Under the pieces are notes generated by a model. The model saw only the letters and a list, made by a program, of their open reading frames with translations. It was not told where the DNA came from and searched no databases. The position numbers and the translations under genes are program-made. A DNA stretch of 64,000 nucleotides from Flavipsychrobacter sp. (GTDB taxonomy: Bacteria > Bacteroidota > Bacteroidia > Chitinophagales > Chitinophagaceae), in contig JAJNBJ010000002.1 in NCBI GenBank assembly GCA_021155965.1, forward strand, positions 324,289 to 388,288, given 5' to 3'. The stretch's first letter is position 1. Each line of letters opens with the position of its first letter. Shown one piece after another: positions 19,246 through 45,502 of this stretch.

Positions 19246-19648
19246 CGTTCGCTCTCTTCACCGATCTCACCTTTTCTGGCACACTTTTTGCAGCATAATA
19301 ATATTGCGCTGCAAACGGCTAAAACCTGCTGCCAGTGCGCATTTTGGCAGTTCTTTGTTTATTGGAAAATCTACCTTTTTTATACCTTTTTTCAGGTATA
19401 ATTATACCTGAACAGGGTATAAATATACCTTTGGGGGGTATAATTATACCCTTTTATACCCCTTTATACCTTAAATTAAAACACATAAAATAAGCCCACA
19501 GCGCGTTTCCGCCACATATAAAAAACTAAATGTTCAAAAACAGGCACTTGCTCAAAATTATACCCTCCGCTCGCAACTACACTTGTGCAGGGTAGCTTTT
19601 AAGCGAGGCTGATTACTTAGAGTATCATATTTTTACAAAAAACTACAA
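19246..19648. other. Gene-free region occupied by repeat element A
   Basis: No credible coding frame is present in 403 bp. Almost all of it is the modular element at 19276-19586. The last 60 bp lead to the redoxin gene and contain no clear TAnnTTTG box (closest: TATTTTTA about 20 nt before the ATG). Confidence 0.6.
19276..19586 (+). repeat. Modular intergenic element A: TGGCAC head and 21-bp-phased TATAATTATA palindromes
   Basis: The element aligns over about 300 bp with the reverse complement of 45174-45502. In order: CTGGCACACTTTTTGC (from 19276, GG-N10-GC spacing), CAAACGGCT.AAACC, GCGCATTTTGGCAGTTCTTTG (the last 12 bases at 19346-19357), then the palindromes GGTATAATTATACC (19395-19408), GGTATAAATATACC (19416-19429) and GGTATAATTATACC (19437-19450). 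Unit starts are exactly 21 bp apart. They are followed by TATACC half-sites, AAAACACATAA, GCCCACAGCGCG (19494-19505), AAAATTATACC and CTACACTTG. The first palindrome extends to 18 perfect bases. The redoxin gene starts 62 bp after the element. Confidence 0.85.
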
Positions 19649-20245
19649 ATGAAAATAACCATATTGGCAATTGCTGTCTTATTCGCTACCACCATTGCAT
19701 TTGCACAAGGCATTAACCCCGGCGATGATCTGCCGTCCGGAGAAATTGTACTGAAAAATACAAACGGCAAAGCAACCTCTTTGAAAGGTGCTGCCGGGAA
19801 GAATGGTTTGCTGGTGATATTCTCCTGCAACACCTGCCCGTATGTGATCAAGAATGAGCCCGTGATCAAAAAAACACTGGAATATGCAGCCGCTAATAAT
19901 ATAGGCGTAGTTATCATCAACTCGAATGAAGCACGGAGGGACGGAGATGATTCGTATGATGCTATGGCAAAATATGCTAAGTCGCAAAACTTTAAAGTGC
20001 CTTACCTTGCAGATGACAACTCCAGGTTGGCCGACCTGTTTGGCGCTATGCACACCCCCCAGCTATTCCTGTTCAATAACAAAATGAAACTGGCCTATAA
20101 AGGCGCTATGAACGACAACCCCGGCAACCCCGGCGGGGCCACAAAAACGTTTATAGAAGATGCCATCAATGCTGTGGTGGCGGGCAAAGACCCGGACCCG
20201 AACACAACAAGATCGGTAGGTTGCAGCATTAAGCGCAAGGCATAA
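19649..20245 (+). CDS. Secreted thioredoxin-like (redoxin) protein
   Basis: This 198-residue protein has a signal peptide (MKITILAIAVLFATTIAFA-Q) and an AhpC/TSA-redoxin fold. GLLVIFSCNTCPYVIKNEPVI contains a CxxCP redox pair, followed by VVIINSNEARRDGDDSYDAM and the cis-proline segment GAMHTPQLFLFNNKMKLAYKGAMND. This is the periplasmic thioredoxin-like family common in Bacteroidota and Planctomycetes. The distal CSIKRK tail adds one cysteine of unknown role. A role in thiol-disulfide exchange or peroxide reduction outside the cytoplasm is inferred. It lies directly downstream of repeat element A, which may hold its promoter, and is followed by a strong terminator. Confidence 0.85.
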   Translation: MKITILAIAVLFATTIAFAQGINPGDDLPSGEIVLKNTNGKATSLKGAAGKNGLLVIFSCNTCPYVIKNEPVIKKTLEYAAANNIGVVIINSNEARRDGDDSYDAMAKYAKSQNFKVPYLADDNSRLADLFGAMHTPQLFLFNNKMKLAYKGAMNDNPGNPGGATKTFIEDAINAVVAGKDPDPNTTRSVGCSIKRKA

Positions 20246-20362
20246 CACTATATAAGTGTTTATATATCAATAAGATATTAACATCGGCTTAAAACAATTT
20301 ATTAACGTATACAAGTAATCCTATTTCTATAACTTGTATCTTTCAGCCCCGTTTTTTCCGGA

Positions 20363-20388
20363 GCCTGCGAGGCAGGCAGTTTTTTTTA
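20363..20388 (+). terminator. Rho-independent terminator after the redoxin gene
   Basis: GCCTGC (20363-20368), loop GAG and GCAGGC (20372-20377) are followed by AG and a run of eight T. It lies 118 bp after the stop at 20245. Confidence 0.8.
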
Positions 20389-20467
20389 CTCAACATTACC
20401 AGGTATTTGGGGATAAGACAGAATGCTACCTTTATTGTAGCCAGGCAAAACTTTTAAACTATTGTGT

Positions 20468-21136
20468 ATGAGCAGTGTGCGTAAATTTTCATTGGTAGTA
20501 TTATCGTCTTTTATTTTTGGCAATGTGATTGCGCAAAAACCCGCAGCCACTACTCCTGCACCGGCTGCAGATATGCCAGCTTTGGTATGGAAAAAACAGA
20601 TTGCCCGCGTAATAGACATGGGGCCAAACAGCGATGCCAACACGCAAAACATCAGCGATGTAAGCTCGGAAAATACGCTGATAGATATGTTCGTGAACCT
20701 GATACGCGGGAATAAGGTATTGGCTTATACGGCAACAGATAAGATATTTACTGTTAAACTCACAATAGCAGAATTAAACAGGATACTGGCAGGGAAAAAG
20801 GACACAGTACTGCTAACAGACCCTGTAACCAACAAGACCTCAACGAAGATAACACAACGTGAACTGATCCTGGATTCTGTGCATAAATTCAAGATACTGG
20901 AAGAATGGTCGTGCTACCCTGCTACGGGTAAAACAGAGATACAAATAATAGGCATTGCACCGCTCATGAATGTATATAACGAAGATGGTACAATACGCAC
21001 CACAACACCTATGTTCTGGATGCGGTTCAACGACATAAGCGCTATTCTTGCACGCTACCAGCAATACCACCCCAACAATACGCTTGCGGGGCATATCTGG
21101 GAAGACTACTTTACCAACAGCTTACGGGCTAAATAA
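20468..21136 (+). CDS. GldN-like protein (single domain)
   Basis: The protein has 222 residues from ATG 20468; the TTG two codons earlier is unlikely. Residues 1-23 (MSSVRKFSLVVLSSFIFGNVIA-Q) are a signal peptide, followed by a short Pro/Ala linker. The body follows GldN/PorN: WKKQIARVIDMG, NTLIDMFVNLIRGNKVLAYTATD..F, a KKDTVLLTDPVTNK segment, FKILEEWSCY, IQIIGIAPLMNVYNEDG, PMFWMRFNDISAILARYQ and HIWEDYF. GldN is a periplasmic protein of the T9SS and gliding-motility machinery that works with GldK, GldL and GldM. Here none of those genes is adjacent, and the next gene carries two more copies of the domain. This is probably a paralogue or a separated core component; sequence alone does not decide. 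Confidence 0.82.
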   Translation: MSSVRKFSLVVLSSFIFGNVIAQKPAATTPAPAADMPALVWKKQIARVIDMGPNSDANTQNISDVSSENTLIDMFVNLIRGNKVLAYTATDKIFTVKLTIAELNRILAGKKDTVLLTDPVTNKTSTKITQRELILDSVHKFKILEEWSCYPATGKTEIQIIGIAPLMNVYNEDGTIRTTTPMFWMRFNDISAILARYQQYHPNNTLAGHIWEDYFTNSLRAK

Positions 21137-21222
21137 ACGTTTACCCCATACTTTAATTAATTCATCCCTATTTACTTGACTCAGGGAAGGCAGGCTATTA
21201 TATTTATTGTAAACCAGTGCCT

Positions 21223-22356
21223 ATGTGTATTTTCCGTATTATTTGCACAGTGTTACTAATGCAACTGTTTTCTGTTGCCAACGCCCAGAATATAGTTTGG
21301 AAGAGACGTGTAGCGAGAGAGATAGAGGTTGGGAAAGTGTCTGAGAAAGTCCGTGCCAAGGATTCTGCGCTTGTGGATATGCTCCTGGTGGCAATACGAG
21401 CCGGAAAACTGCCTGTCTACTCCGGCATCAACAATGATTTCAGCAGGCAGTTGACCATGGAGGACATCAATACAACGTTCAATGAAGCTGACACAGTAGT
21501 GATCGTAGATCCGGTGACGGGCAAGGAAACTATTAAAATTGTCAAACACGATATAGAAGTATATAAATACCGGGTATTGGAAGAATGGTCATTCGACAGA
21601 GTGGGCGGTACAACGGCTATTAATATAATTGGAATTGCCCCACTTGTAAAAGTATATGGCTCAGACTTTGAAGCGGTGAAAGTTTTGTTTTGGGTGAAAT
21701 ACACTGACATAGCCACCATTGTTGTGCGCGAAAAAAACATACACTCACAAACTGCCTTTATAGCTACCCTTTTAAAAGACCATTTTGGCCCGGATACTAA
21801 AAATCCGGCAATAGCAAATAAGCGGATAGGAAAAAATTTAAGGTACATAATGCTTGACCCAGTGGACAGTATTCGACGCCATTTAAAAGATATGGGATCT
21901 GATAGTTCGTTGTATGACCTGATCGTTTATGCTACTGAAACTAAAAAAGTACCTATATATGATAGCTCTGGCAAGAAATTGTCGCACATGGATATATTAC
22001 CTCCACCAGACACCACTACACTTATTGACCCGGTAACCAACAATGAAGTTATAAAGATCATAAAACATGAACTTTATGGATTCAAACCCAAGTACAAGTT
22101 CGTTGAAGAGTGGTCATTTGATGAGCTAAAAGGTAACATCCAGATAAAAATAGAAAAAGCAGGGCTATTTTTGGAACACCCAGATTATCAAATGTATAAT
22201 AATCTGCAAGAAACTGAAGACTTGTTTTGGGTAAAATTTGAAGATTTTTCAGCCATATTGTCAAAGTATGAACATAGCCACTACAACACTTCTCTCTCTC
22301 ATTTGCTGTGGAAAGAGTATTTTATGAAAGAAGAAGTGAAGCCAAAGAGAAAGTAG
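21223..22356 (+). CDS. Tandem two-domain GldN-like protein
   Basis: The protein has 377 residues from ATG 21223 (a GTG lies two codons upstream). It has a signal peptide (MCIFRIICTVLLMQLFSVANA-Q) and then two consecutive GldN-like domains. The first (about residues 21-190) shows WKRRVAREIEVG, LVDMLLVAIRAGKLPVYSG, DTVVIVDPVTGKE, YRVLEEWSFD, INIIGIAPLVKVY and VLFWVKYTDI. The second (about 205-365) shows SLYDLIVYATETKKVPIYD, DTTTLIDPVTNNE, YKFVEEWSFDELKGNIQIKIEKAGLF, DLFWVKFEDFSAILSKYE and LLWKEYF. The internal duplication is easy to see. The canonical family has one such domain of about 200-300 residues. It probably shares a promoter region and a job with the neighbouring single-domain gene. 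Confidence 0.8.
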   Translation: MCIFRIICTVLLMQLFSVANAQNIVWKRRVAREIEVGKVSEKVRAKDSALVDMLLVAIRAGKLPVYSGINNDFSRQLTMEDINTTFNEADTVVIVDPVTGKETIKIVKHDIEVYKYRVLEEWSFDRVGGTTAINIIGIAPLVKVYGSDFEAVKVLFWVKYTDIATIVVREKNIHSQTAFIATLLKDHFGPDTKNPAIANKRIGKNLRYIMLDPVDSIRRHLKDMGSDSSLYDLIVYATETKKVPIYDSSGKKLSHMDILPPPDTTTLIDPVTNNEVIKIIKHELYGFKPKYKFVEEWSFDELKGNIQIKIEKAGLFLEHPDYQMYNNLQETEDLFWVKFEDFSAILSKYEHSHYNTSLSHLLWKEYFMKEEVKPKRK

Positions 22357-22406
22357 CCCGGCCCACCATTTCACTAATCAACTTATCGCCGTACCTTGCA
22401 TGCCTG

Positions 22407-23240
22407 ATGGTAAAAGTAGGCGAATACAATACACTGAAGGTTGTAAAAGAGGTTGATTTCGGGATGTACCTGGATGGCGGCGAAGATGAGATATTGCTTC
22501 CGAAACGTTATGTGCCCGCAGGTTTGAAACCAGACGACGAAGTTACAGTGTTTGTTTACCATGACAACGAAGGCCGATTGATAGCGACCACAGATAAGCC
22601 ATATGCAACTGTAGGAGAAATAGCTATGCTGGAAGTTGTAGACGCAAACCCAAGCGGCGCTTTCCTGAAATGGGGTATTATGAAGGATGTATTTACCCCC
22701 ATAGCTAACCAGGAACAACGTATGCGCCCCGGCGATAAGCGATTAGTACGGTTGTATATTGACGAGCGGACAGGCAGAGTAACTGCTACTGAGAAAATAG
22801 ATAAATTTCTCAGTAATTACGAGCTAACCGTTAAAGAGCATGATCCGGTAGATATTGTTGTGTACCAGCGTACGGATATTGGCTATAAGGTGATCATTAA
22901 CAGTAAACACCTTGGCGTACTGCACTTCAATGAAGTTTTCCGCGACCTGGAGATCGGTGAAAAAGCCAAGGGCTTTGTAAAGCAAGTGCGCGAGCACAAC
23001 AAAATAGATGTGGCACTTGGCACAAAGGGATATGCAAAGGTAGAAGGCGAAGAAGGTAAGATACTGGCGATGTTACAGAACAACAATGGTTATCTCCCTT
23101 ACAACGACAAATCTGATCCAGAGGCTATTTATGCAACGTTTGGAATGAGCAAAAAAACCTTCAAGATGACTTTGGGTGCATTATACAAAAAGCGGCTGGT
23201 TATCTTCACACAAACAGGTACCAAACTGGCGGAAAACTAA
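22407..23240 (+). CDS. CvfB-like S1 RNA-binding protein
   Basis: The protein has 277 residues from ATG 22407. The open frame extends 33 codons further upstream, into the end of the GldN-like gene, but MVKVGEYNTLKVVKEVDFGMYLDGG is the conserved family start. CvfB proteins carry three S1-type domains and a C-terminal winged helix. Visible are VDFGMYLDGGEDEILLPKRYVP (S1a), GEIAMLEVVDANPSGAFLKWGIMKDVFTP (S1b), VDIVVYQRTDIGYKVIINSKHLGVLHFNEVF (S1c) and a winged-helix-like end LPYNDKSDPEAIYATFGMSKKTFKMTLGALYKKRLV. The role in RNA binding and virulence-gene control is known from Staphylococcus; here it is presumed. Its stop is 3 nt from the convergent gene's stop. Confidence 0.88.
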   Translation: MVKVGEYNTLKVVKEVDFGMYLDGGEDEILLPKRYVPAGLKPDDEVTVFVYHDNEGRLIATTDKPYATVGEIAMLEVVDANPSGAFLKWGIMKDVFTPIANQEQRMRPGDKRLVRLYIDERTGRVTATEKIDKFLSNYELTVKEHDPVDIVVYQRTDIGYKVIINSKHLGVLHFNEVFRDLEIGEKAKGFVKQVREHNKIDVALGTKGYAKVEGEEGKILAMLQNNNGYLPYNDKSDPEAIYATFGMSKKTFKMTLGALYKKRLVIFTQTGTKLAEN

Positions 23241-23243
23241 GGC

Positions 23244-23558
23244 TTACCTTCTGCCCCTGCGCCAGTGCCCGGGTATCCACACCCAACCATTCCTCTTATG
23301 ACGCCAATGACCGGGCACCCATCTTGACCTGCCGGAAGGTGGTTCCACCCAACGGCTGCCTATGTAATCATACCTGCCATCGCGAGGAGCCCAGTCATCC
23401 TCGATCCATACATGGCGGGGGCTTGGTGCATTTACACGCACATCAACCTGCGGGGGCCTGTCGGGCCTTACCTGGATATACACCTGTGCATGACTATTAT
23501 ATATACCTGCCGAAACAACTATAACTAATGCACATAAAAACTTCACGATACTTTTCAT
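23244..23558 (-). CDS. Secreted WxxGxW/YxWxxW repeat protein
   Basis: This 104-residue protein has a signal peptide (residues 1-24, ending SHA-Q). The mature part is short, basic and rich in Trp, Arg and Pro. It has aromatic repeat units VWIEDDWAPRDGRYDYIGSRW, RSRWVPGHWRHKRNGW and VWIPGHWRRGRR, as in the WxxGxW repeat family found in periplasmic or outer-membrane proteins of many Proteobacteria and Bacteroidota. The function is unknown. Confidence 0.75.
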   Translation of the reverse strand: MKSIVKFLCALVIVVSAGIYNSHAQVYIQVRPDRPPQVDVRVNAPSPRHVWIEDDWAPRDGRYDYIGSRWVEPPSGRSRWVPGHWRHKRNGWVWIPGHWRRGRR

Positions 23559-23670
23559 GGTTCGTTTTTTGCATATTGGCCCTAAAATTTCATGCCTTCC
23601 TCACGGAATTCAAATTGTATTTTACAAAACTCACCCTACTATTTAGCGGCATATCATTTATATTAGCAGC

Positions 23671-24693: not shown

Positions 24694-24705
24694 TTTTATC
24701 TCCTG

Positions 24706-28294: not shown

Positions 28295-31200
28295 TTACCT
28301 GATCAGCGCTACCGTACCTTTAAGCTGCTTCAGCTCTCCATTGGGCTGACTTAGGATAATGAGATAGTTATATACGCCTATATCCTGCGGCACACCATTG
28401 AAGGTTCCATCCCATCCCTCATTAATGTTATAGGTGTTGAGGTATATTAACTGTCCCCAGCGATTGAATACGCGGAAATCAACAAGTTGGTGATACTTTG
28501 TATTTTCTACTCTGAAGACGTCGTTCTTTCCGTCGCCATTAGGCGTAAAGGCATTGGGCACATCAGTCAGGATGTTATCATCAACGTGAATGATTATGCG
28601 TGCTGTGTCCTCACAACCCCATACGTTCATGGCGCGCAGAGTATAGACTGTTGTTTGTTGAGGTGTTGCCAAGGGGCTATCAATATTGTTATTGTTCAGA
28701 GTTCCATCATTAGGGGCCCAATAATAAACTGCAGCACCTTCCGCTTTCAAAATAACACTCGAACCAAGCGGTATTACTTTGTCTTCCGTAATATTGGTCA
28801 GCTTGAGGGGCGGATAAACGATCACGTTCATTGACTTGGTCGTGGGGCAGTTGAGGTGCCTGATAGTCAACGTATACAATCCAGAATCAGCCATTGAAAC
28901 ACCCTGGATCTTTGGATCTTTCTGGTTGGATGTGAACCCATTAGGCCCTACCCACTCGTAAGTGAGGTCGGTGATAGCATTGGTGGCATCCAGCGATAAT
29001 GTTTTACCACTGCATACAGGGCTATTACTAAACATTGCTGGTGGCAAGGGCGGGCTTGGATCAACTAATGTTACTGGCCCTACTGAATTAGATAAACAGG
29101 TAAATGAGCTTACGTTAAAGTCGGCATACAAGCCCTTGGACAATCCAGTAATTATAACTTTCCCTAATCCATCAGCTACGATTGTCGCAGTAACAGGGTT
29201 ACCATTAAAAGTATAGCTCACAGAATAAGATACCCCGGCAAGCAATCCAGAGAGTGTTACGGTACCATTTATCCCTTCACATGTAGAAGGATGAGTTACG
29301 GTAAAGCCGGATATCTGTGGGATTGGATGTACAATAACGCTTACTGTTGCCGGTGAAGATACACAGCCCAGCTTAGTTGCAGTAACGGCATAAGTACCGA
29401 TATGACTTAATGTGCCCGGATTAAATATGGGGTTCTGTGCAGTAGAGGTAAAGCCTCCCGGGCCGGTCCATGAATAGGTAACGCCCGGAACAGAATTTGT
29501 TGCAGTGAGGTATAGCATGACCCCATCGCATACAGGACTATTTGTACCAACAATGGGAGCAGGTGGCGCCGGTGGCAGCGTTAGTGCTATTGGCCCGGTA
29601 AAGGTGTTCGATGTACAACCTAAAGTAGTGGTTACACTAAAATTCATATAACTGCCAGCAGATAACCCTGTGATGACAATATTACCAGAGGTATTGGCAG
29701 TCAATACTAAAGTGACTGGTGCAACACCGGCAGAATAGTTAACAGTATACGATTGCCCGGATACCAGGCCGTTCAAAGTTATTGTTCCGTCACTATTCAC
29801 ACATGTTGTTGGATTGGTAAATGACGTGCCTGTTATGCGTGGGGTTGGATTAACCGTAACATCTGCAGTAACATAGCAACCAGCAGATGTTATATAAGTG
29901 ATCGTCGTGGCTCCTGCAGTTACACCTGTAACAACTCCTGTTGTGAAGCCAACCGTGGCTATTGCGGTGTTATTACTGCTCCATGTTCCACCGGCTAAGG
30001 TATTGTACAGTGTTGTTGTAGCTCCTTCACAAACAACCATTACACCAGTTATGGTTGCAGGAACAGCATTAACGATAAATGGAATAGTTGAAGCACAACC
30101 TTCGGGTGTAGTGTACCTGATGATAGCTGCACCAGGCAACAGGCCGCTTACCACACCAGTAGCAGCTACTGTCGCAACAGAAGGGACTGTAGAACTCCAA
30201 GTCCCCCCCGGAGTAGCATCACTCAATGTTGCTATTTGCCCCTGGCAGATAGATGTTACACCAGTTATGGACAATGGAAGCGGGTTAACCGTTACGACGA
30301 TCGTTGCGGTACAACCTGCGGGCGACGTATACGTGATATTTGTTGTACCCGCAGTAATGCCGCTCACAATGCCACTGCCAGCCGACGCAGTTGCTACTGC
30401 CACGGCACTGCTGGTCCAGGCACCGCCGGGAAGTGAATTGGTGAGCACGGTAGTGCTGCCCACGCAAACCTTAGGAATGCCGCCAATTGTTGACGGCAGA
30501 GGATTTACTGTTACATTAAAGTTAGCTATACAGCCCAAACTTGTAGAGAACCTTATGGTTGTAACCCCTGCAGTAATACCTGCAACAACACCTGTGCCTA
30601 AACCAACTGTGGCAACAGCGGGCATTGTACTGCTCCATGTGCCGCCACCGGGTGTAGTATTATTTAATGTAGTTGAACTGCTTGCGCAAACCATATGGCT
30701 ACCTGTAGTAGGCGAAAGTGGTTTTACAGTAATATCTGCTGTACTTGCGCAGCCGGCAGATGTAGTATAGGTCATGGTAGCAAGGCCGGCAGTAACACCT
30801 GTGGCTACACCGGTGCCAGCACCAATTGAAGCAATAGATGAACTGCTGCTGCTCCACGTGCCGCCTGCTACAGCATTGCTTAGTGTGATGGTATTGCCCT
30901 GGCATACAGTTGTTGCACCTGTAACAGGTTGCTGGGCATGAACCGTAACATTAACTGATGCTGCACAGCCCGTTGTAGTTGTGTACCTGACTACTGCTGT
31001 GCCCGGGACAATACCTGTTACAAGCCCACTTGCATCAACAGTTGCAACGGAAGGATTAAGGCTTGTCCATGTACCACCGGGTTGCGGATAACTTAGAGCC
31101 GTAGTATTGCCCTGACAAACAACAGGTGTACCTGATATACCTGTTAGCGGATCAACGGTTACGAGTACAGTTGAAAAACAACCTCCGGGCAAAGTATAAG

Positions 31201-34200
31201 TTATGGTTACTGTGCCGGGTAAAATGCCTGTAACTAGCCCAGAAGGGTTTACCACTGCTATAGTTGGATTACTGCTGCTCCATGTGCCGCCACTCACAGC
31301 ATTGCTGAGTGTAGTTGTTGTACACACAAGTGTTCCGCCACTGATCGGGGAAGGCGAAGAATTAACCGTTACAATGCCTGCAGATACACAACCAGCGCCT
31401 GTAGTGTATTCAATGCTTGCCGTACCGCCCATCATACCGGTAACCACACCTGTTGATGCAACCACTATAGCCACTGATGGGCTAAGGCTGCTCCAACTGC
31501 CGCCGGGGACCGTATTGTTTAATACCAATGTAGTGCCTACACAAATAGTGCTCATACCTGTAACCGGCGCAACCGGATCAACTGTAAATAAAATTGTAGC
31601 GTTACAGCCTCCGGATGTTGCATAATTGATGGTTATAGCACCACCTGCGAGGCCAGTAACTATGCCTGACGAAGCGCCTATTGTTGCAACTGAAGGATTA
31701 CTGCTGCTCCATGTACCACCCGGGGCTGCATTGCTCAATGTTGTTGTGCTACCCTGGCAAACACTGGTTGCTCCTGATATTGGAGTTGGTATGGTCACGG
31801 TTAAAGTACCCGAATTAACACACCCGGCCGGGGTTGTATATGCGATAGTTGAAGTACCTGTTGATACAGCGGTTACCAATCCGCTAGAGACACCAATAGT
31901 GGCTACTCCGGTAGAAGCCGAGTTCCATGAGCCACCACTAACAGCGCTGTTCAGTGTAGTTGTACCTCCAACACACAACAGGAATACTCCAGTTATTGCA
32001 GGATTTGCATTTACGGTAATTGTTGTTGTAACAGAACAGCCTGATGGGTTTGTGTACGAGATAACAACCGTGCCTCCGGACATCCCCATAAGTATACCAG
32101 ACGATGCGCTTATGGTAGCGACAGCAGTATTTGTGCTTATCCAAGTGCCACCTATAGTACTGTTGCTGAGCGTTACTGTGCTTCCTTCGCATACACTGCC
32201 GGGGCCTGTGATAGGCGTGGGCAGCCCTACACTGACCAGAGTATTGGCAGTACAGCCGGCAGATGAAGTATATGTTACACTTGTGTTACCCACAGCCATA
32301 CCTGTAACAATTCCCGATGTACCTCCAATTGTTGCTATCGAAGGATTACTGCTGATCCAAGTACCGGGGCCGGCAGCGTCACTCAATGTTGTTGTACCGC
32401 CTACACATACCGAAGGGACGCCCGATATAGGCGAGATCGGATTTACTGTCACGTTAGTGGTAGTAAAGCATCCCGCAGGTATGGTATACGTTATAGTTGC
32501 AGTGCCGCCCCCAATTCCCGTAACTATTCCTGTCGAAGAACCAATGGTTGCAACAGACGGGTTTGCACTTGACCATGTGCCTCCGCTTGCTGCATCATAT
32601 AACGTTGTTGTGGTGCCCTGGCATACGTTAGTAGTGCCGGTTATCGGGCTTAACAAGTTAACCACTAACGAAGTGGTTGCCTTACAACCCGCCGGAGTTG
32701 TATAGGTGATCATTGCCATTCCGGCTGATACACCTGAAGCAAATCCAGTTGTAGCACCTATAGTAGCAACAGCAGTATTACCACTGATCCAGGTACCGCC
32801 GGCGACAGTGTTCGCCAGCGTAGTTGTTCCACCCACACAAATATTGGTTGTGCCGGTTACAGGCGCAAGCGGATTTACCGTTAATATAGCCGCCGTATAA
32901 CAACCGGCTCCCGATGTTGTATAAGAAACAGTTGTTGTACCCGCTGCCAGCCCTGTAGCTATACCCGATGAAGAACCAACCGTACCTACAGATGTATTCG
33001 AACTGCTCCAGACACCACCGGAAGTAGCATTGCTCAAGGACGACGTACTGCCCATACACACAGACATATTTCCAATAATGGGCGCTACAGGAACAAGAAT
33101 GTTTACCATTGTTACAGAAGTGCAGCCTGCGGTAGAGGTATAAGTAATATTGGCTGTCCCTAATGCATTGCCTGTTACAATACCGCTGGATGCACCTACA
33201 CTGGCAACAGTTGGGTTGCTGCTGCTCCATGTGCCGCCGGCAGGTATGCACAACAATGAAGAAGAACCTCCCGCACAAATAGTTGTGGTGCCATTTATAG
33301 GAGAAACAGGATTAACGTTAATTGTCTTTGTTGTTGTCGATGAGTTGCCACAGGCATCGGTAGCCGTTACTGTATAAGTGGTGGTTGTTAACGGAGAAAC
33401 CGAAAGCGTAGAACTTGAACTTGCGACAGGCGACCAGCTATAAGTGTATGGTGGCACCCCATATGATGATGTAGCCGTTAAAGTAGTTGATTGCCCCTGG
33501 CATACACTTGACGGCATTGCCGTAATTGTGTTTGCTTCAACAGTATGCCCGAATACTGTAATTGTCAAAGGTGTACCTGCCGAGATGTATGAGGGGCTAC
33601 AGCTACCTGCGGATGAATAGTTCTGATAAAAATCCATAGACAGGCCCATGTTGTAAGAAGTACAACTCGGGCCCGGGAGACAGGGAGCTATTTGTCCTGC
33701 AAATATGGTTGCACCTATAGCATCACAAGTGCCGGGCAGGCCGCTGCTGCAATTCCAGTAAAGGGAGGCCGGTGCAGGGCTCCTGCATGTGCTGAGCCTG
33801 AAGTCATATGCACCATTATTGGTCAATGCACCACCGCTGGCAATGTACTGGAAGGTGAATTGTATATCTGTTACGGTAACCTTGGCAGGTACTGTAGCTG
33901 CATTAGTGTATACACAACCGGTAGACCATGACGGGCTGTAAGTTGAACCACTAACTGCTGATGTAGTTGCAAAAGATACAAGTGGGTCTATGATAACCGG
34001 ATAGGCTGATGCCGCCCTGTTCAGGAAATTGCCTGGCACCACAATATCTACATTGTTACCGTTCACTTTGTATGCAAGCATTTGCAACGTACTCCTGCCT
34101 GCGGTTTTTTCAAAAGCAACGGCGGTTGATATAGTATACAATCGCTCGCCTGCTTTCCTGATCTCCATATCGCCGGTGTGCAATTGTTTGCTTTCACCGG

Positions 34201-34963
34201 GAATGAATATAGACAGCCCATCTGAGAAATGCATATGGTCCCTTACGTGCAGGCTGCCGCCTGCATACGCAGGCATTGAGTGATTGATGATAAAGTTTGT
34301 TTTTATAGCACCGCGCACTACATGCATCTCAATATCTATACCGTCCCATGCATTGGTGATGTACACACCATCGTTACCAGCGGTGTAGTGGCTGTAATCT
34401 GCCATGCCTAATACCTGTTCAGCTCCGCCAGGCTTTGAGAATACTAATTCCAGGTTGCGGTTGAATTGAATGGACTGTCCGGCTTTACCTAACGAAGCAA
34501 ACTTGTCGACAGTATTTACCTCAACAGGAGCTTCTTGTTCGGCAGCAGCAAATATTCCCTTTTGCGTACCAGGTTGCAATCTTGATTTGATAGTCAGCCA
34601 TACACCATTAGGACCTTTGTAGTGCATTGGGCCAGATGAGGTTTGCTGCATTATATCAGCACCATTTGTACCGGCTTTGATAAATGTTTTTGAGATCTCA
34701 GTGCGTTTGCTTATCAGTTCATAACAATTTCTGCAGGGAGCTTCAGCAAACAGCATACCTATTTCAGGGTGCTGTTCATAACCAATATTATTGGTTGTTG
34801 CTTCTTCTGATACTTGCTTAACAGGGGTAGTGAAGGTTGTATAATTCGGGGTTGTACTTAAAGCACTATTCACATTAGCCGATTGCTGAGCATGCAGCTG
34901 AATGCTATTAAGAGAACAGAGAAAAAGTAAAATAAATATTACGCGCGTAAACAAATACTTCAT
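28295..34963 (-). CDS. Giant Ig-like repeat protein with type B (CHU_C) T9SS sorting domain
   Basis: The protein has 2222 residues from ATG 34963; eight more in-frame codons upstream are not signal-like. The signal peptide (MKYLFTRVIFILLFLCSLNSIQLHA-Q) is followed by a unique N-terminal region of about 300 residues (PCRNCYELISKR, GPNGVWLTI, NAWDGIDIEMHVVRGAIKTNFII) that resembles the opening domain of other gliding-associated surface proteins. A PKD-like domain precedes about 16 Big2-type modules of 72 residues at roughly 29850-33318. Next come two pairs of an Ig-like domain (LSGLLAGVSYSVSY type) and a PKD-like domain (SPVCDGVMLYLTATN...YSWTGPGGF). The C-terminus (VPNAFTPNGDGKNDVFRV...VFNRWGQLIY...WDGTFNGV...GVYNYLI) is a classical CHU_C type B sorting domain. 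T9SS export to the surface is expected; an adhesive or structural role is inference. A TAGATTTG box lies 87 nt upstream. Confidence 0.93.
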   Translation of the reverse strand: MKYLFTRVIFILLFLCSLNSIQLHAQQSANVNSALSTTPNYTTFTTPVKQVSEEATTNNIGYEQHPEIGMLFAEAPCRNCYELISKRTEISKTFIKAGTNGADIMQQTSSGPMHYKGPNGVWLTIKSRLQPGTQKGIFAAAEQEAPVEVNTVDKFASLGKAGQSIQFNRNLELVFSKPGGAEQVLGMADYSHYTAGNDGVYITNAWDGIDIEMHVVRGAIKTNFIINHSMPAYAGGSLHVRDHMHFSDGLSIFIPGESKQLHTGDMEIRKAGERLYTISTAVAFEKTAGRSTLQMLAYKVNGNNVDIVVPGNFLNRAASAYPVIIDPLVSFATTSAVSGSTYSPSWSTGCVYTNAATVPAKVTVTDIQFTFQYIASGGALTNNGAYDFRLSTCRSPAPASLYWNCSSGLPGTCDAIGATIFAGQIAPCLPGPSCTSYNMGLSMDFYQNYSSAGSCSPSYISAGTPLTITVFGHTVEANTITAMPSSVCQGQSTTLTATSSYGVPPYTYSWSPVASSSSTLSVSPLTTTTYTVTATDACGNSSTTTKTINVNPVSPINGTTTICAGGSSSLLCIPAGGTWSSSNPTVASVGASSGIVTGNALGTANITYTSTAGCTSVTMVNILVPVAPIIGNMSVCMGSTSSLSNATSGGVWSSSNTSVGTVGSSSGIATGLAAGTTTVSYTTSGAGCYTAAILTVNPLAPVTGTTNICVGGTTTLANTVAGGTWISGNTAVATIGATTGFASGVSAGMAMITYTTPAGCKATTSLVVNLLSPITGTTNVCQGTTTTLYDAASGGTWSSANPSVATIGSSTGIVTGIGGGTATITYTIPAGCFTTTNVTVNPISPISGVPSVCVGGTTTLSDAAGPGTWISSNPSIATIGGTSGIVTGMAVGNTSVTYTSSAGCTANTLVSVGLPTPITGPGSVCEGSTVTLSNSTIGGTWISTNTAVATISASSGILMGMSGGTVVISYTNPSGCSVTTTITVNANPAITGVFLLCVGGTTTLNSAVSGGSWNSASTGVATIGVSSGLVTAVSTGTSTIAYTTPAGCVNSGTLTVTIPTPISGATSVCQGSTTTLSNAAPGGTWSSSNPSVATIGASSGIVTGLAGGAITINYATSGGCNATILFTVDPVAPVTGMSTICVGTTLVLNNTVPGGSWSSLSPSVAIVVASTGVVTGMMGGTASIEYTTGAGCVSAGIVTVNSSPSPISGGTLVCTTTTLSNAVSGGTWSSSNPTIAVVNPSGLVTGILPGTVTITYTLPGGCFSTVLVTVDPLTGISGTPVVCQGNTTALSYPQPGGTWTSLNPSVATVDASGLVTGIVPGTAVVRYTTTTGCAASVNVTVHAQQPVTGATTVCQGNTITLSNAVAGGTWSSSSSSIASIGAGTGVATGVTAGLATMTYTTSAGCASTADITVKPLSPTTGSHMVCASSSTTLNNTTPGGGTWSSTMPAVATVGLGTGVVAGITAGVTTIRFSTSLGCIANFNVTVNPLPSTIGGIPKVCVGSTTVLTNSLPGGAWTSSAVAVATASAGSGIVSGITAGTTNITYTSPAGCTATIVVTVNPLPLSITGVTSICQGQIATLSDATPGGTWSSTVPSVATVAATGVVSGLLPGAAIIRYTTPEGCASTIPFIVNAVPATITGVMVVCEGATTTLYNTLAGGTWSSNNTAIATVGFTTGVVTGVTAGATTITYITSAGCYVTADVTVNPTPRITGTSFTNPTTCVNSDGTITLNGLVSGQSYTVNYSAGVAPVTLVLTANTSGNIVITGLSAGSYMNFSVTTTLGCTSNTFTGPIALTLPPAPPAPIVGTNSPVCDGVMLYLTATNSVPGVTYSWTGPGGFTSTAQNPIFNPGTLSHIGTYAVTATKLGCVSSPATVSVIVHPIPQISGFTVTHPSTCEGINGTVTLSGLLAGVSYSVSYTFNGNPVTATIVADGLGKVIITGLSKGLYADFNVSSFTCLSNSVGPVTLVDPSPPLPPAMFSNSPVCSGKTLSLDATNAITDLTYEWVGPNGFTSNQKDPKIQGVSMADSGLYTLTIRHLNCPTTKSMNVIVYPPLKLTNITEDKVIPLGSSVILKAEGAAVYYWAPNDGTLNNNNIDSPLATPQQTTVYTLRAMNVWGCEDTARIIIHVDDNILTDVPNAFTPNGDGKNDVFRVENTKYHQLVDFRVFNRWGQLIYLNTYNINEGWDGTFNGVPQDIGVYNYLIILSQPNGELKQLKGTVALIR

Positions 34964-35049
34964 AATTAAATGCCAATCAATACACACTTAAGACCAGTGT
35001 TTTAACACAATGGTTGGCTAAGCATATATACAGTGATATCCTTAAGCTA

Positions 35050-39675: not shown

Positions 39676-39706
39676 CAGAATTATAACGTGAAAATACGTG
39701 TACAAA
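39676..39706 (-). promoter_or_regulatory. Candidate promoter TTTG-N19-TAATTCTG for the GH2-GH20 operon
   Basis: On the minus strand TTTG (39706-39703) is followed after 19 bp by TAATTCTG (39683-39676), one base from TAnnTTTG. It ends 5 nt before the predicted start at 39670, so this would also be a leaderless transcript. Confidence 0.4.
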
Positions 39707-39739
39707 TCGTATTTTAGATACCTAAAAATAGTTTTTTAG

Positions 39740-40345: not shown

Positions 40346-42546
40346 TTATTCACAGATGATGGCCAATCCTGCGGATTAGCCCCCCATGATTTGTTTGGCT
40401 GAGGCCCCATGACAAATTCCAATGCACCACCTTTCATTAGCGTTACATGGTCAATATAGGTCTTTGTGTAGGGCCGGCCATTCAGCCTTACGCTTTGAAT
40501 GTAGGGGTTATCCGGGCCGTTATTGACTGTAAATATCCCAAATTGCCGCTGGTAAGGCAGATCAATGACCACCTCATCAAACATGGGACTACCAAAAATA
40601 TACTCACCACTTGCGGGGTTTGCAGGATACATGCCCATCATGCTCCATATAGCCCAGGCGCTCATCTGGCCGCAATCTTCATTACCCGCATAACCATCAG
40701 GCTGAGCATGATACATTGAATCCATAATCATCCTCACCATCTTCTGTGTTTTCCATGCCTGCCCAAGATAGGTGTACATGTATGCAATATGGTGGCTTGG
40801 CTCATTGCCATGCGCATACTGCCCTATAAGGCCGCTAACATCAGGTGGCGCGCTCTCCCCCTTCACCGAAGATGACACGGTAAATAACGAATCGAGTTTC
40901 GTGAGAAACTTATTGTATGTACCAAATTGTTCAGCCAATCCTCGTACATCATGCGGTACAAAGAATGTGTATTGCCATGCATTACCTTCTTCATACATAG
41001 ACGTTCCTTTTGTGGATGTGAGGTAAGGATCAAAAGGTTCTACCCAACTACCATCTGAATTTTTCCCACGTATAAACCCTGTCTGTTTATCGAACAGCAG
41101 TTTATAAGCCTGGCTTCTTTTCATGAACAGGTTATAATCATCGAATTTGCCAAGTTTTTTGGCCACCTGCGCTATGCACCAATCATCGTAGGCATACTCA
41201 AGAGTTACCGTTACACTATATCCTTGCTTATCCTGTGGCAGGTAGCCATATTTAATGTAATCCTGCGTACCTCTTACATTTTGAAAAGCGCTGGCGCGCA
41301 TGGCTTTATATGCATGTTCAGCATCAACGTCCGGGGTGTTCTTCAGCACAGCATCCGCCACTACTGGTACCGCGTGATAACCGCTCATGCAGCCCGTTTC
41401 CCATGTGCTTAGGTCCCATACAGGTAACAATCCGTTCTCATCATAGAATGCCAGCATGCTATTTATGAAATCAGGATTCCGCTCCGGTTGCAGGAGCGTG
41501 AAGAGTGGGTTCAATCCTCTAAACGTATCCCACAACGAGAATACCGTGTATCGCTGCCCCTTCTTCAGCTTTGTTGTTTGTCCCTTTGCGTTTTTATAGT
41601 ATCCGTCTTTGTCAGAATACAGCACAGGTGCCATACAAGTATGGTACAAAGCAGTGTAAAATATCTGTTTCAGCTTTTCATTATCGGTTCTCACTTTTAC
41701 TTTGTTCATTTCATTCTGCCATTTCCATTCTGCTTCATTCACAACACGCTGAAAATCCCAATCCCATATTTCACCCAAAGCTTGCATAGCCTTATCAGAA
41801 TTCACACTTGATAAGGCTACCTTCATCATCAATGACTGCCCTTCCAGGTCTTTAAAAACCAATTGTGCATTTTGCACGTTCCTATCTTTAAACCTGCCCA
41901 CTTTATAAATATGCAACTGGTCGATCGGTCTATTCAGCCGTGCAGCAAAATATACCCGCTGCACATTCGCCCAGCCTTTGGAATATCTATAGCCTGCAAT
42001 CGTATAATCATCTACCTTAAAAATGTGTGTTTCCGTAGGGCTATCATAATTCATCATGTATGCCAGGTTGAAGAATACCACGGGCTTGCTCCCTTTTGGG
42101 TAAACATAGGTGTGGAAACCACATCGCTCTGTTGCGGTCAACAGCACTTTTATGCCATTGCCCAGCTTTACTCCATAATATCCGGGGCGTGCGGTTTCGC
42201 TGTCGTGGTTGAATTTTACCCTGAAGTCCTTCATGGTGTCCGGTATCATGCCTGTATGTGGCATTACAGATATATCCACCCAGTCGCCGCAGCCGGTACC
42301 GCTGAGGTGTGTATGGCTAAAACCGGTTATAGTGCTATCAGCATAGTTATAACCGCTGCACCAGTCCCAGCCCTGCGTACCATTATCCGGGCTTAGCTGC
42401 ACCATGCCAAACGGCACCGTGGCACCCGGATATGTATGCCCATGCCCACCTGTGCCTATCATGGGATCTACGTATTTCAGCAGGCGCTGCCCATGGGCGT
42501 GTCCTGCACCAAAGCAAGCAAGGAGAATAACAAGCCACTTCCTCAT
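40342..42546 (-). CDS. GH92 alpha-1,2-mannosidase
   Basis: The protein has 734 residues from ATG 42546, which opens a signal peptide (MRKWLVILLACFGAGHAHG-Q); the longer frame from 42591 adds 15 residues of untypical sequence. GH92 enzymes are calcium-dependent exo-alpha-mannosidases. Motifs include the N-terminal YVDPMIGTGGHGHTYPGATVPFGMVQLSPD, YADSTITGFSHTHLSGTGC, the catalytic-domain WDTFRGLNPLFTLLQP, HGNEPSHHIAYMY and GYAGNEDCGQMSAWAIWSMMGMYP. All are intact and the length is normal. The expected substrate is alpha-1,2-linked mannose of high-mannose N-glycans or mannan. It is divergent from the GH125 gene; the two probably share the 97-bp regulatory region between them. Confidence 0.94.
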   Translation of the reverse strand: MRKWLVILLACFGAGHAHGQRLLKYVDPMIGTGGHGHTYPGATVPFGMVQLSPDNGTQGWDWCSGYNYADSTITGFSHTHLSGTGCGDWVDISVMPHTGMIPDTMKDFRVKFNHDSETARPGYYGVKLGNGIKVLLTATERCGFHTYVYPKGSKPVVFFNLAYMMNYDSPTETHIFKVDDYTIAGYRYSKGWANVQRVYFAARLNRPIDQLHIYKVGRFKDRNVQNAQLVFKDLEGQSLMMKVALSSVNSDKAMQALGEIWDWDFQRVVNEAEWKWQNEMNKVKVRTDNEKLKQIFYTALYHTCMAPVLYSDKDGYYKNAKGQTTKLKKGQRYTVFSLWDTFRGLNPLFTLLQPERNPDFINSMLAFYDENGLLPVWDLSTWETGCMSGYHAVPVVADAVLKNTPDVDAEHAYKAMRASAFQNVRGTQDYIKYGYLPQDKQGYSVTVTLEYAYDDWCIAQVAKKLGKFDDYNLFMKRSQAYKLLFDKQTGFIRGKNSDGSWVEPFDPYLTSTKGTSMYEEGNAWQYTFFVPHDVRGLAEQFGTYNKFLTKLDSLFTVSSSVKGESAPPDVSGLIGQYAHGNEPSHHIAYMYTYLGQAWKTQKMVRMIMDSMYHAQPDGYAGNEDCGQMSAWAIWSMMGMYPANPASGEYIFGSPMFDEVVIDLPYQRQFGIFTVNNGPDNPYIQSVRLNGRPYTKTYIDHVTLMKGGALEFVMGPQPNKSWGANPQDWPSSVNN

Positions 42547-42643
42547 AAAAGAACAATATAGAACGAAGATACTACCGCAAACGAAAACCAATAAAGTAAA
42601 ATAATTAAATATAAATGAATAGATTTACGTACAAACGCACATT

Positions 42644-44062
42644 ATGGACAGGAGAAAATTCGTTCAGCAAACTTCACTCGCTACTACGGCAATATTGTTG
42701 GCGCCATACATTAAAGCATGGGGTGCCAACGAACAATTTCCTGTTGTGCGCACACCTGAGGGCAAACGTAAATTCAAAAGCCATGCTGTGGACCGAGTCA
42801 TTGCAGAGATCAAAGAAAAGATAGGTAATAAAGAATTGGCGTGGATGTTTGAGAACTGCTTTCCTAATACACTGGACACAACGGTTGACTTTGAAATGAA
42901 AGATGGCAAGCCGGACACTTATGTGATAACCGGCGACATAGATGCCATGTGGCTGCGTGATTCATCGGCACAGGTATGGCCGTACCTGCCGTTGTGCAGG
43001 GAAGATGAAAACCTGAAGAACCTGATAAAAGGCGTTATCAACCGGCAGACCCGCTGCATACTTAAAGACCCATATGCAAATGCTTTCTACAAGAGTGATA
43101 AAAAACGCGGGCCGTGGAAAAAAGATAATACGGCAATGCTGCGTGGCATACATGAGCGTAAATGGGAAGTTGATAGTCTTTGTTACCCTATTCGCTTAGC
43201 GCATGGCTATTGGAAAGAAACCGGCGACACCTCACCATTTGATGCACAATGGGCTGAGGCGATGAAGCTGGTGCTGAAAACCTTTAAAGAGCAGCAACAT
43301 TTTGAAGGCAAGGGACCATATAGCTTCATGCGTAAAACAGAGTATGCCACGGACAGTGTGCCGCTGGGCGGCTATGGCTATCCGGTGGCACCTAACGGCA
43401 TGATATGCTCCATGTTCCGGCCGAGCGATGACGCTACTATTTTTCCGTTTCTTGTTGCCAGCAACCTTTTTGCATTTGCTGCTTTAGGCCAACTGGAAAC
43501 TCTTGCTACCGCTACAAAAGTGGACATAGATCAGCAAGCCATTACCGATATGATGTCGCAGATAGTGACAGGGATCAATAACGATGCTAAAGTGGAAACG
43601 AAAAAATATGGGAAGATATTTGCTTATGAGGTTAATGGATATGGCAGCCAAAACCTGATGGATGATGCCAATGTGCCATCGCTACTATCCATTGGTTACC
43701 TGGCGCCCGAAATGGCGAAAGACCCGATTTATAAGAACACACGCAAGTATGTGCTCTCTAACGATAACCCCTTCTACTTTAAAGGCAGCGCAGGCGAAGG
43801 CATAGGCGGCCCTCATGCAGGCATGGACAAGATATGGCCGCTCAGCATCATTATGCGCGGCATCACCAGCACCGATGATAAAGAGATAAAGATGTGCCTG
43901 GATATGCTGCAACGCTCCCATGCTAACACCGGTTTCATGCACGAATCCTTCCACAAAGACGATGCTGCAAAATATACCCGCCCGTGGTTTGCATGGGCCA
44001 ATACTTTGTTTGGGGAGTTTGTGTGGAAGGTGTATAGGGAGAGGCCGGGGTTGTTGAGTTAG
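42644..44062 (+). CDS. GH125 exo-alpha-1,6-mannosidase
   Basis: This 472-residue metal-independent inverting alpha-1,6-mannosidase has a leader MDRRKFVQQTSLATTAILLAP whose RRKF pair resembles a Tat signal. The (alpha/alpha)6 domain shows FPNTLDTTVDF, TYVITGDIDAMWLRDSSAQVWPYLPL (aspartate-rich active-site segment), RGIHERKWEVDSLCYPIRLAHGYW, YGYPVAPNGMICSMFRPSDDATIFPF, ANVPSLLSIGYL, GEGIGGPHAGMDKIWPLSIIMRG, and the end FMHESFHKDDAAKYTRPWFAWANTLFGEFV. It matches GH125 along its whole length. It would follow GH92 in trimming the alpha-1,6 branch of N-glycans. Confidence 0.93.
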   Translation: MDRRKFVQQTSLATTAILLAPYIKAWGANEQFPVVRTPEGKRKFKSHAVDRVIAEIKEKIGNKELAWMFENCFPNTLDTTVDFEMKDGKPDTYVITGDIDAMWLRDSSAQVWPYLPLCREDENLKNLIKGVINRQTRCILKDPYANAFYKSDKKRGPWKKDNTAMLRGIHERKWEVDSLCYPIRLAHGYWKETGDTSPFDAQWAEAMKLVLKTFKEQQHFEGKGPYSFMRKTEYATDSVPLGGYGYPVAPNGMICSMFRPSDDATIFPFLVASNLFAFAALGQLETLATATKVDIDQQAITDMMSQIVTGINNDAKVETKKYGKIFAYEVNGYGSQNLMDDANVPSLLSIGYLAPEMAKDPIYKNTRKYVLSNDNPFYFKGSAGEGIGGPHAGMDKIWPLSIIMRGITSTDDKEIKMCLDMLQRSHANTGFMHESFHKDDAAKYTRPWFAWANTLFGEFVWKVYRERPGLLS

Positions 44063-44093
44063 AAGAGAGTTTGTTTTTACATCCTGCTTTCAG

Positions 44094-45083
44094 TTACTGC
44101 TTGTTATACCCACTTGGCACACTAAACAACTCTGCCGGTATGGTTATATTCTCCTGTATTGATGTTGCCTCTTTTGTATAGCCCATATTGCCGCCCATGG
44201 AATAGTTAATCAATTTCACATCTACATTCTTCCACAACCAGTAGGTTACTTTCATTTTTTCGTGCTCATATACATCGCAGTTCATGCCGACTACGGTCTC
44301 GTTTCCTTTTTTGTTGTAGCCGCCTTGCTTGCGCTGTGTTTCTGTGGAGTAAGATATTACAGGCGGCTCTGTGCTCTTAGGGCGTACGGGCGTAGTGTAG
44401 TAGTTTTTCTTCACGTGGTTGTATACTGTCGTTTTGTTGTCTTTCCATATTGTGGTGCTGTTTTCCCGCTGGTTCATCATACCAGGCTTGTCAACGATCG
44501 AAATCACTGTTTTGCCGTAGTCGTCTATATACAGGGTCTCTTTGCCGGCAAACATTTTATGCCCGGTATAAGTGAACTCTATTTTTGCTGATTTGCACAG
44601 GAAGGGTTTATCCATAGTGATATTTACGGCGGAGGCTATGTCTTTCTGTGTTTGCGCTACCACTTCTTTTTGTGTGGACATTTTCTCTGCCGAAGGGTTG
44701 TCATTATTATATTTCCACGCGGCCCTCCGGTTCTCTTTGGTCATTTCTGCTTTCACGGTTTGTGTTTTGCCGTCTTTTATCAGCAGCATTTCAACCGTCG
44801 TTGGCAATGGTTTGCCCATTTTCTGCATCACTTCCACTATATCTTCCGAAAACCATTTCTGCCACCTATCGCCTTTTTCCTGTTTGCAGAAAGCAACTAT
44901 TTTGTTCGCTTCTGTGCCATGCAGTTTCACCAACAGGTACCAGCCATCATTCACCATTACATATGGATTAGCCTGCAGCCATTTTACGGCACTGTAGGGC
45001 GCCGTACGCTCGGGTGCATTTTGTGCAATAGTGCTTCCATTTAAAATGAGCATCGTAACGAACAGAAAAATGATATGCCGCAT
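44094..45083 (-). CDS. Secreted protein with DUF4412-like C-terminal half
   Basis: This 329-residue protein has a signal peptide (MRHIIFLFVTMLILNGSTIA-Q). The first half (AVKWLQANPYVMVNDGWYLLVKLHGTEANKIVAFCKQEKGDRWQKWF) is unfamiliar. The second half (KIEFTYTGHKMFAGKETLYIDDYGK..., ENSTTIWKDNKTTVYNHVKK, ETVVGMNCDVYEHEKMKVTYWLWKNVDVKLINYSMGGN, ITIPAELFSVPSGYNKQ) has the periplasmic lipoprotein-carrier-like pattern of DUF4412 proteins; this is tentative. It is convergent with GH125. The repeat element B lies directly upstream and in the same orientation, as element A does for the redoxin gene. Confidence 0.7.
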   Translation of the reverse strand: MRHIIFLFVTMLILNGSTIAQNAPERTAPYSAVKWLQANPYVMVNDGWYLLVKLHGTEANKIVAFCKQEKGDRWQKWFSEDIVEVMQKMGKPLPTTVEMLLIKDGKTQTVKAEMTKENRRAAWKYNNDNPSAEKMSTQKEVVAQTQKDIASAVNITMDKPFLCKSAKIEFTYTGHKMFAGKETLYIDDYGKTVISIVDKPGMMNQRENSTTIWKDNKTTVYNHVKKNYYTTPVRPKSTEPPVISYSTETQRKQGGYNKKGNETVVGMNCDVYEHEKMKVTYWLWKNVDVKLINYSMGGNMGYTKEATSIQENITIPAELFSVPSGYNKQ

Positions 45084-45173
45084 AAAAGAAGGTTTATATC
45101 AAAAATATCATTAATTCTGATTTTTTTAACAAAATAAAGAGCGCGCCTGGTTTAAGAGATGTCATGTAAAATC

Positions 45174-45502
45174 GCAAGTGTAGTGCAGGTGCCCTCCTTT
45201 GACGAAAGCTACGGCGGCTGAAAAAGGTATAATTTTCGGAATGTGCCGTTTTTGGTACATAGTTATTTTTAGATGTGGGCGAAAAGCGCTGTGGGCGTAT
45301 CTTATGTGTTTTATTTTCAGGTATAAAGGGGCATAAAAGGGTATAATTATACCCCTAAAAGGTATATTTATACCCTGAAAAAGTATAATTATACCCTCAA
45401 AAATGTATAATTCCAGTAAGTCAAAGAACTGCCAAAATGCGCTCCGGTGGCTGGTTTCAGCCGTTTGTTGCGTAGTATATAATGCAGCAAAAAGTGTGCC
45501 AG
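45174..45502 (-). repeat. Modular intergenic element B: inverted copy of element A
   Basis: On the minus strand it reads CTGGCACACTTTTTGC (45502-45487), CAAACGGCT.AAACC, GCGCATTTTGGCAGTTCTTTG (last 12 bases 45433-45422), then AGTATAATTATACC, GGTATAAATATACC and GGTATAATTATACC. Their plus-strand spans are 45382-45395, 45361-45374 and 45340-45353, exactly 21 bp apart, and a degenerate fourth unit at 45403-45416 keeps the phase. ATAAAACACATAA, GCCCACAGCGC, AAAATTATACC and CTACACTTG follow in the same order as in element A. The main length difference is an insertion near the 3' end. The element ends about 90 bp before the gene starting at 45083. Confidence 0.85.

Follow-up and report, generated by a model that had tools for sequence, protein, structure and literature searches.

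Phage small terminase subunits (TerS) bind DNA at a packaging site (pac or cos) and recruit the large subunit (TerL), and such subunits are also encoded by phage-inducible chromosomal islands (PICIs). Among dispersed repeats, the repetitive extragenic palindromes (REP/BIME, and REPIN with the TnpA-REP or RAYT gene) combine high-copy intergenic palindromes with a gene present in few copies and serve as targets of insertion sequences (ISs). The coexistence of gene-bearing and gene-less repeat copies is a pattern already known. Here we describe a family of elements represented by two copies in a 64,000-nucleotide stretch of the genome of Flavipsychrobacter sp. (GenBank assembly GCA_021155965.1, contig JAJNBJ010000002.1, positions 324,289 to 388,288 of the forward strand; hereafter, the window). 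The element is modular and joins a promoter head, which in many copies includes a boxA-like AGTTCTTTGA, to a tail with an array of helically phased half-sites; some copies have, before the array, a gene for a helix-turn-helix (HTH) protein of the TerS family. We consider it probable (about 65%) that these are interspersed elements with gene-bearing and gene-less copies whose TerS-like protein binds the cognate array.

The family resembles REP/RAYT in outline, including the high-copy intergenic palindromes (120 in this genome), but is not a member because its gene differs from the defining transposase: no Y1 (HuH) transposase is among the listed matches of the encoded protein (RAYTs elsewhere in the genome were not sought). 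A TerS-like HTH from an unrelated protein family, helically phased arrays, promoter heads and the boxA-like signal are further differences. With phage and PICI terminases it shares a TerS-family protein that adjoins a candidate recognition array; in contrast, each element has at most one gene, there are ~118 elements (T1 plus T5, see below) per genome, and a packaging role is putative. The integrase, replication and interference genes of PICIs and phage satellites were not seen in the copies read, which have one gene between the promoter region and the array. Another family from the Bacteroidota, the BrickBuilt miniature inverted-repeat transposable element (MITE) of Porphyromonas gingivalis, is likewise built of a leader, a tandem repeat and a tail; it has 19 intergenic copies in one strain, reported promoter activity, 23-bp repeats, IS5-like terminal inverted repeats and no gene (PMC4596501). 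The present elements stand apart by their 10/11/21-bp phasing, by gene-bearing copies and by the lack of inverted ends visible by eye. No matching description was found in the open-licence literature searched. The family appears to be a selfish or regulatory genome element of a kind not described before, and it was not seen to have the full defining features of any repeat family with which it was compared.

Copies, phased arrays and promoter heads

A preliminary description of the window had noted a duplicated intergenic block with palindromes 21 bp apart. The block at 19276-19586 (+) indeed aligns from end to end with 45174-45502 (-), its palindromes start at 19395/19416/19437 and 45340/45361/45382, and the degenerate unit near 45403 can be recognized by eye. 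Both copies lie between co-oriented open reading frames (ORFs), copy 1 between 17869-19245(+) and 19649-20245(+) and copy 2 between 45642-46586(-) and 44094-45083(-). The window contains 12 matches to GGTATAATTATACC with up to 3 mismatches, 6 of which are the palindromes in question; a shuffle control gave a mean of 4.1 matches, and none of 100 shuffles reached 12. That description was right about the copies and the phased array and overlooked the promoter head with its boxA-like signal, a second array family in the window and the TerS-like gene of some copies. The features of the two copies are as follows.

19276..19586, + strand: copy 1, a gene-less T1 (TATACC) element with a sigma54-type head (alignment, blastn)
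19277..19291, + strand: sigma54-like -24/-12 TGGCACACTTTTTGC of copy 1, by the general consensus
19349..19366, + strand: boxA-like AGTTCTTTGTTTATTGGA of copy 1 (compare AGTTCTTTG of the sigma54-type heads, below)
19381..19470, + strand: array of copy 1 (half-site 19381-19386; palindromes 19395-19408, 19416-19429 and 19437-19450; half-sites 19455-19460 and 19465-19470)
19555-19564, + strand: tail-end motif AAATTATACC of copy 1, just past which homology between copies mostly stops
45174..45502, - strand: copy 2, a gene-less T1 element with a sigma54-type head (alignment, blastn)
45487..45501, - strand: sigma54-like TGGCACACTTTTTGC of copy 2 (motif match)
45340..45395, - strand: three palindromes of copy 2, at 45340, 45361 and 45382 (GGTATAATTATACC matches)

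Far from being limited to two, T1 copies number at least 65 in this genome (lists merged by hand; G000, 4,252,795 bp in 50 contigs, 99.8% complete, with Flavipsychrobacter and Taibaiella among its named relatives; G, C and L numbers are our labels for genomes, contigs and loci). At least 40 copies were detected by blastn at E<=1.6e-35 (40 scored of 112 candidates), CCCTTTTATACCCCTTTATACCTT, a 24-mer from the array end, has 62 sites with up to 3 mismatches, some overlapping (reversed control, 0), and GGTATANNTATACC occurs 120 times (reversed control, 2); a search of the contig collection genome_contigs with an exact 26-mer gave 0 matches. We excised 59 distinct T1 copies and aligned 44 of these. 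The phase is kept in many copies, which contradicts a single recent duplication or a loss of phasing elsewhere: consecutive exact palindromes in the copies read are 21 bp apart in 27 of 28 pairs and 42 bp apart in the remaining one. The array unit is the half-site TATACC, with spacings of 10 bp (107 cases), 11 (18), 21 (92), 20/22 (4), 31/32 (5), 42 (1), 12 (1) and 75 (1), which are nearly always whole turns of DNA; in L033 the palindromes are lost and the phase, by eye, is retained.

Mean column identity in the 44 aligned copies is 99.3% for the half-sites, 89% for spacers within the array and 77% for the following tail. RNAalifold found 0 of 14 pairs covarying in these copies, so the conservation looks DNA-like and an RNA structure of the array is rejected; we read half-site conservation without covariation as probable selection on DNA binding. 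Together with the spacing, this bears out the array as a candidate protein-binding one. Nor is there a known RNA family, as Rfam gave 0 matches in the window and 6 matches, all below threshold, in 8 loci. The tail extends ~90 bp past the array and ends in AAATTATACC; 1022 of 1717 pairwise T1 alignments stop just after it, in the bin 120-124 past the anchor. By a crude ORF call, 44 of the 59 copies overlap no ORF of at least 70 aa, and 15 overlap ORFs of 73-264 aa.

T1 heads are of more than one type. The sigma54-type head, found in 14 copies, has TGGCAC-N5-TTGC, followed by AGTTCTTTG (14/14 heads tried); TGG, A5 and TTTTTGC are invariant in all 14 aligned heads. TGGCAC-N5-TTGC is the sigma54 -24/-12 pattern. 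Many other heads consist, by eye, of an array of CCTTGACGGTAC repeats, then GAACTTTACAT and AGYTCTTTGA. Of 51 T1 copies that could be assessed, 37 have RYTCTTTG in the 330 bp upstream, where the window background predicts 0.028 occurrences per copy (16 copies with a contig end or IS at that place and one without the anchor were left out). We infer its boxA-like nature from GTTCTTTGAAAGATTGG in two contig-end leaders with tandem promoters (L217/L218), presumably rRNA leaders. RYTCTTTG was not seen near any of the 5 gene-bearing copies of this genome; with the three gene-bearing copies set aside, 37 of 48 gene-less T1 copies have it. This pattern would be in keeping with a requirement for transcription across the array, with the gene-bearing form possibly protected by translation and the gene-less form by antitermination. 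The picture is less clear for T5 copies.

A second array family and a TerS-like gene

The second family, T5, has arrays of TGCGCAA half-sites, whose 49 counted spacings are 11 bp in 42 cases, 10 in 3, 21 in 3 and 34 in 1; TTGATNATCAA accompanies 16 of 23 such arrays. Two T5 elements lie in the window.

12978..13175 (right end approximate), + strand: T5 element with a sigma54-like head (TGGCACAGATTTTGC 12978-12992; boxA-like 13007-13023; TTGATGATCAA 13062-13072; TGCGCAA at 13081, 13092 and 13103, an 11-bp phase)
51930..52321 (ends approximate), - strand: T5 element with a CCGTCACGGTAC-type head (boxA-like AGCTCTTTGAAAATTTGG 52188-52171; TTGATAATCAA 52093-52083; TGTGCAA/TGCGCAA at 52073, 52062 and 52051)

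Over 192 columns, the upstream region of the latter shares 82.8% identity with the head of T1 copy L055, and such matches to T1 heads were found for 8 of 9 independent T5 upstream regions (10 were tried and one, overlapping a T1 copy, was dropped), against 0 of 60 random chunks of the window. With heads common to T1 and a second tail, the idea of SINE-like 5' truncation was dropped. In the relatives G413, G407 and G412, one head type stands, by eye, before TATACC arrays and at least 3 other repeat tails. The other tails (L237-L256), which may be further specificity classes, include AAACATTCYCGATGATTTNGGCGATTGAAAATCG units ~41 bp apart, CTTCCGGAAG palindromes with CCAGAAGT half-sites, and GATAAGATGAGATAATCG.

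The gene came to light through a weak match (E 0.053) of locus L495 to a phage primase-helicase (L420) with a C-terminal HTH; the match falls in an ORF between a head and a T5 array. A same-strand gene before the array is present in 10 loci of 6 genomes and 2 genera: in T1 loci L023, L038 and L066 of this genome, L176 of G413, L224 of G407, L127 of G171 and L104 of G033, and in T5 loci L495 and L506 of this genome and L350 of G405. In 8 of the 10 loci the encoded HTH proteins have 166-218 aa. All 6 proteins scanned match the Pfam Terminase_5 HTH above cut-off, and 5 of 5 match most of the 154 positions of phrog_4151 (E 7e-14 to 7e-24). Homologues with ~30% identity were found by tblastn in 37 phage records (Bacteroides 21, Porphyromonas 10, unnamed 5, Elizabethkingia 1). 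In Bacteroides phage p00 and a Porphyromonas phage, the homologue is annotated as terminase small subunit and lies directly 5' of the terminase large subunit gene, as it does in viral contig L508. A comparison with the phage TerS profile by hhalign gave 99.7% (E 8e-27, 143 columns). The element proteins thus belong to the TerS family by homology over most of their length to subunits encoded next to terL. A sequence search of PDB gave 10 matches, all within the HTH part.

The recognition helix has SQKT in all 7 T1 (TATACC) proteins and SRR in all 3 T5 (TGCGCAA) proteins; the association has a Fisher p of 0.008, ignoring kinship in proteins that form two clusters, and is suggestive of a helix type that tracks the half-site type. 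The phage primase-helicase of L420 (Prim-Pol, DUF3987) adjoins a TGCGCAA array itself and ends in SRRTSQNW, with HTH matches below the Pfam cut-off. In L417/L420 (99.8% identical, one phage), the 11-bp TGCGCAA array lies in the replication module with ATTGATAATC, as in T5. At 5681-5925 of L420, this array stands with TGCGCAATTTGCGCA palindromes and ATTGATAATC in an origin-like arrangement, and at 4973-5023 of L418, a TGCGCAA array lies in a phage replication module near clamp-loader and primase genes. A fourth viral match (L419), inside an ORF, looks coincidental. Viral contigs had no pair of T1 palindromes; they had 50 stretches with TTTATACCCNNTTATACC, in a scan run without a control, 54 stretches with three TATACC at 10 bp (reversed pattern, 17), where the densest seem by eye to be unrelated, and none for either of two other tail types. 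A plasmid search gave no match.

Distribution, gain of copy 1 and insertion sequences

Among 35 congeners, 3 have TTTATACCYNNTTATACC in abundance (61, 44 and 34 sites) and 2 more have a single site. A stricter form occurs in 4 genomes of a family sample of 394; one of these, G033, from another genus, has 11 sites and arranges promoter, boxA-like site, array and tail as here. T5 pattern sites number 72 in this genome and 78 in G405, and each of the remaining 33 of 35 congeners has between 0 and 3 (control, 0). A tandem run of TTTATACCCC-type repeats occurs at a single locus of another genus (L126/L130/L133; G051:C27:28978-29079), with no recognizable head or gene. At the site of copy 1, 48 of 99 loci of relatives were assessable (some genomes may occur twice) and none has an array; the gap between the flanking genes has a median of 63 bp (range, 34-2775) in these, compared with 403 bp here. 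Given this short array-free gap, copy 1 is most simply seen as a lineage-specific gain.

The preliminary description had both copies point toward a secreted-protein gene. Both downstream proteins in the window do begin, by eye, with a signal peptide-like sequence (one is a Redoxin and the other has no Pfam match), but the link does not extend to the family: six other copies precede genes for a carboxyltransferase, dehydrogenase E1, RadC, ATP synthase, D-ala ligase and an FAD enzyme. Elsewhere in the window, there are two very long ORFs, 1152-9545(-) of 2797 aa and 28295-34987(-) of 2230 aa.

A near-identical IS with ends TGTCTAGTCCTGAAA and TTTCAGGACGAGGCA and an ORF start MERQKGFKGQKGRRSKYDI breaks the assembly at these elements; a CRISPR or integron origin of this contig-edge repeat was rejected. 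Of 17 right ends read (L020, L024, L035, L063, L064 and others; one, L034, is an inner end), 16 have TATACC within the next 120 bp, and 3 of 5 left ends (L106, L109, L110, L114, L188) are inside a palindrome. Insertion within GGTATAATTATACC is frequent and comes with an apparent duplication of 3-4 bp. Genome-wide, where all 30 candidates were scored and 19 matches are listed, the sole long match off T1 arrays (C40) is in the head of T5 copy L506. The positions of the IS ends make the T1 palindrome a preferred target of this IS. REP palindromes are known IS targets too (PMC1525189); the likeness is a near-identical IS in many arrays, and the palindrome and host are different.

Interpretation and alternative explanations

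In the reading that we favor, a gene-bearing copy would comprise a promoter head, a TerS-family HTH gene, an array with its half-sites phased to one side of the helix and a tail, and most copies, including both in the window, would have kept the head and array without the gene. Protein made from gene-bearing copies would bind the array of its own class, perhaps loading cooperatively, and it is probably this gene product that reads the phased sites. A change in the recognition helix would accompany a change of half-site, giving several specificity classes of one build with exchanged heads. Transcription through the array would matter and could be secured by a translated gene or, in gene-less copies, by boxA. 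The family would have spread, and any benefit might lie in packaging, in a decoy effect or in self-control. A loaded array might act like a pac site and recruit phage DNA-handling machinery in trans, which we tentatively regard as the likeliest use. In a fuller version, which we consider unlikely, the chromosome would hold over 100 pac-like loading sites with two or more specificities, which a few TerS genes, domesticated or selfish, would serve in trans and which would let packaging by phage or phage-like particles start at regular points of the genome, with gene-less sites riding along and specificities diversifying like those of competing mobile elements. A packaging role is attractive because of the even spacing of the elements (see below) and the TerS kinship; however, no array was seen around terS in two phage stretches by eye or in L508 by a repeat search, which counts against it and weakens the pac comparison.

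Several other observations weigh against the favored reading. The L104 gene is incomplete because the stretch ends within it, and the L350 ORF as read continues through the array. The tblastn gene search covered loci chosen nearly all for their arrays, an ascertainment effect, and the gene-bearing share is small (3 of 59 T1 copies read and 2 of 20 T5 stretches). With two sequence clusters, the match of helix and array rests on few independent events. The fold model (HTH, then helices) has a pLDDT of 72; Foldseek found no match in PDB at E<=0.001, with the small terminase 4xvn at 0.96, and its one viral match at E<=0.001 is named a DDE transposase, followed by a terminase small subunit at 0.015. 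A boxA-like site is lacking in 14 of 51 assessable T1 copies, 3 of them gene-bearing, and even a loose pattern was found in only 10 of 24 T5 copies, 6 of which continue as TTCTTTGA or CTCTTTGA. No terminal inverted repeats or target duplications were seen by eye, the left edge varies, and no close empty site was available for comparison.

The last point bears equally on the possibility that the elements are MITE-like nonautonomous transposons, with the array as the end-binding sites of an unseen transposase and the TerS-like protein as its accessory DNA-binding subunit. This would account for the sporadic distribution, the near-random orientation of most copies, the gene-bearing and gene-less forms and the absence of the element at the orthologous site, and the HTH is similar to phage transposition proteins too (phrog_296), in line with the name of the best viral fold match. 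Yet no inverted ends or target duplications were seen at the element edges, no catalytic domain was matched in the encoded protein, and recent copying is not evident, as only one of the 45 longest of 1717 alignments (a 91% segmental duplication) exceeds 73% identity; we find this explanation rather doubtful. Dispersed arrays could also be antiphage decoys that titrate phage replication or packaging proteins reading the same half-site, as the 11-bp TGCGCAA arrays in phage replication modules (L417/L420, L418) and the turnover of specificities between species might suggest; with arrays in only two phages, no T1 palindrome pair in viral contigs and the genes sitting on the elements themselves, we think this quite unlikely.

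Host functions appear still less probable. If the arrays were cis-regulatory sites of a host regulon, for example a sigma54-dependent one, the copies would be operators of downstream genes. The 14 heads do share a conserved sigma54-like promoter, and 12 of these 14 copies have a co-oriented downstream ORF (two-sided p 0.013), but only 25 of 45 other copies do (p 0.55; class difference, p 0.058), the TTTTTACA-type motif downstream of copy 1 is seen by eye also in relatives without the element, and the pattern is abundant in just 3 of 35 congeners. Because relatives lack copy 1 and the tested downstream genes are unrelated, such a regulon is disfavored and very unlikely. A comparably low probability attaches to replication origin-like or chromosome-organizing arrays. 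Direct half-sites beside the palindromes are iteron-like, and the spacing of the 84 T1 and T5 elements that do not adjoin contig ends is more even than expected at random (coefficient of variation, 0.68 versus 0.915 +/- 0.095; P 0.0014; 21 G000 contigs over 78 kb, positions merged by hand). The evenness may, however, come from gene layout or assembly breaks, and the elements are absent or rare in most congeners.

If the favored reading is correct, proteins of a class known from DNA packaging are likely to give a dispersed genome element its specificity, and recognition helix and half-site have been swapped in nature. Were binding true, these swaps would offer a ready code for the choice of DNA by small terminases and would point to a way in which phage machinery might come to address chromosomal DNA. 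Duplicated intergenic DNA such as that in the window can be the gene-less form of a two-part system.

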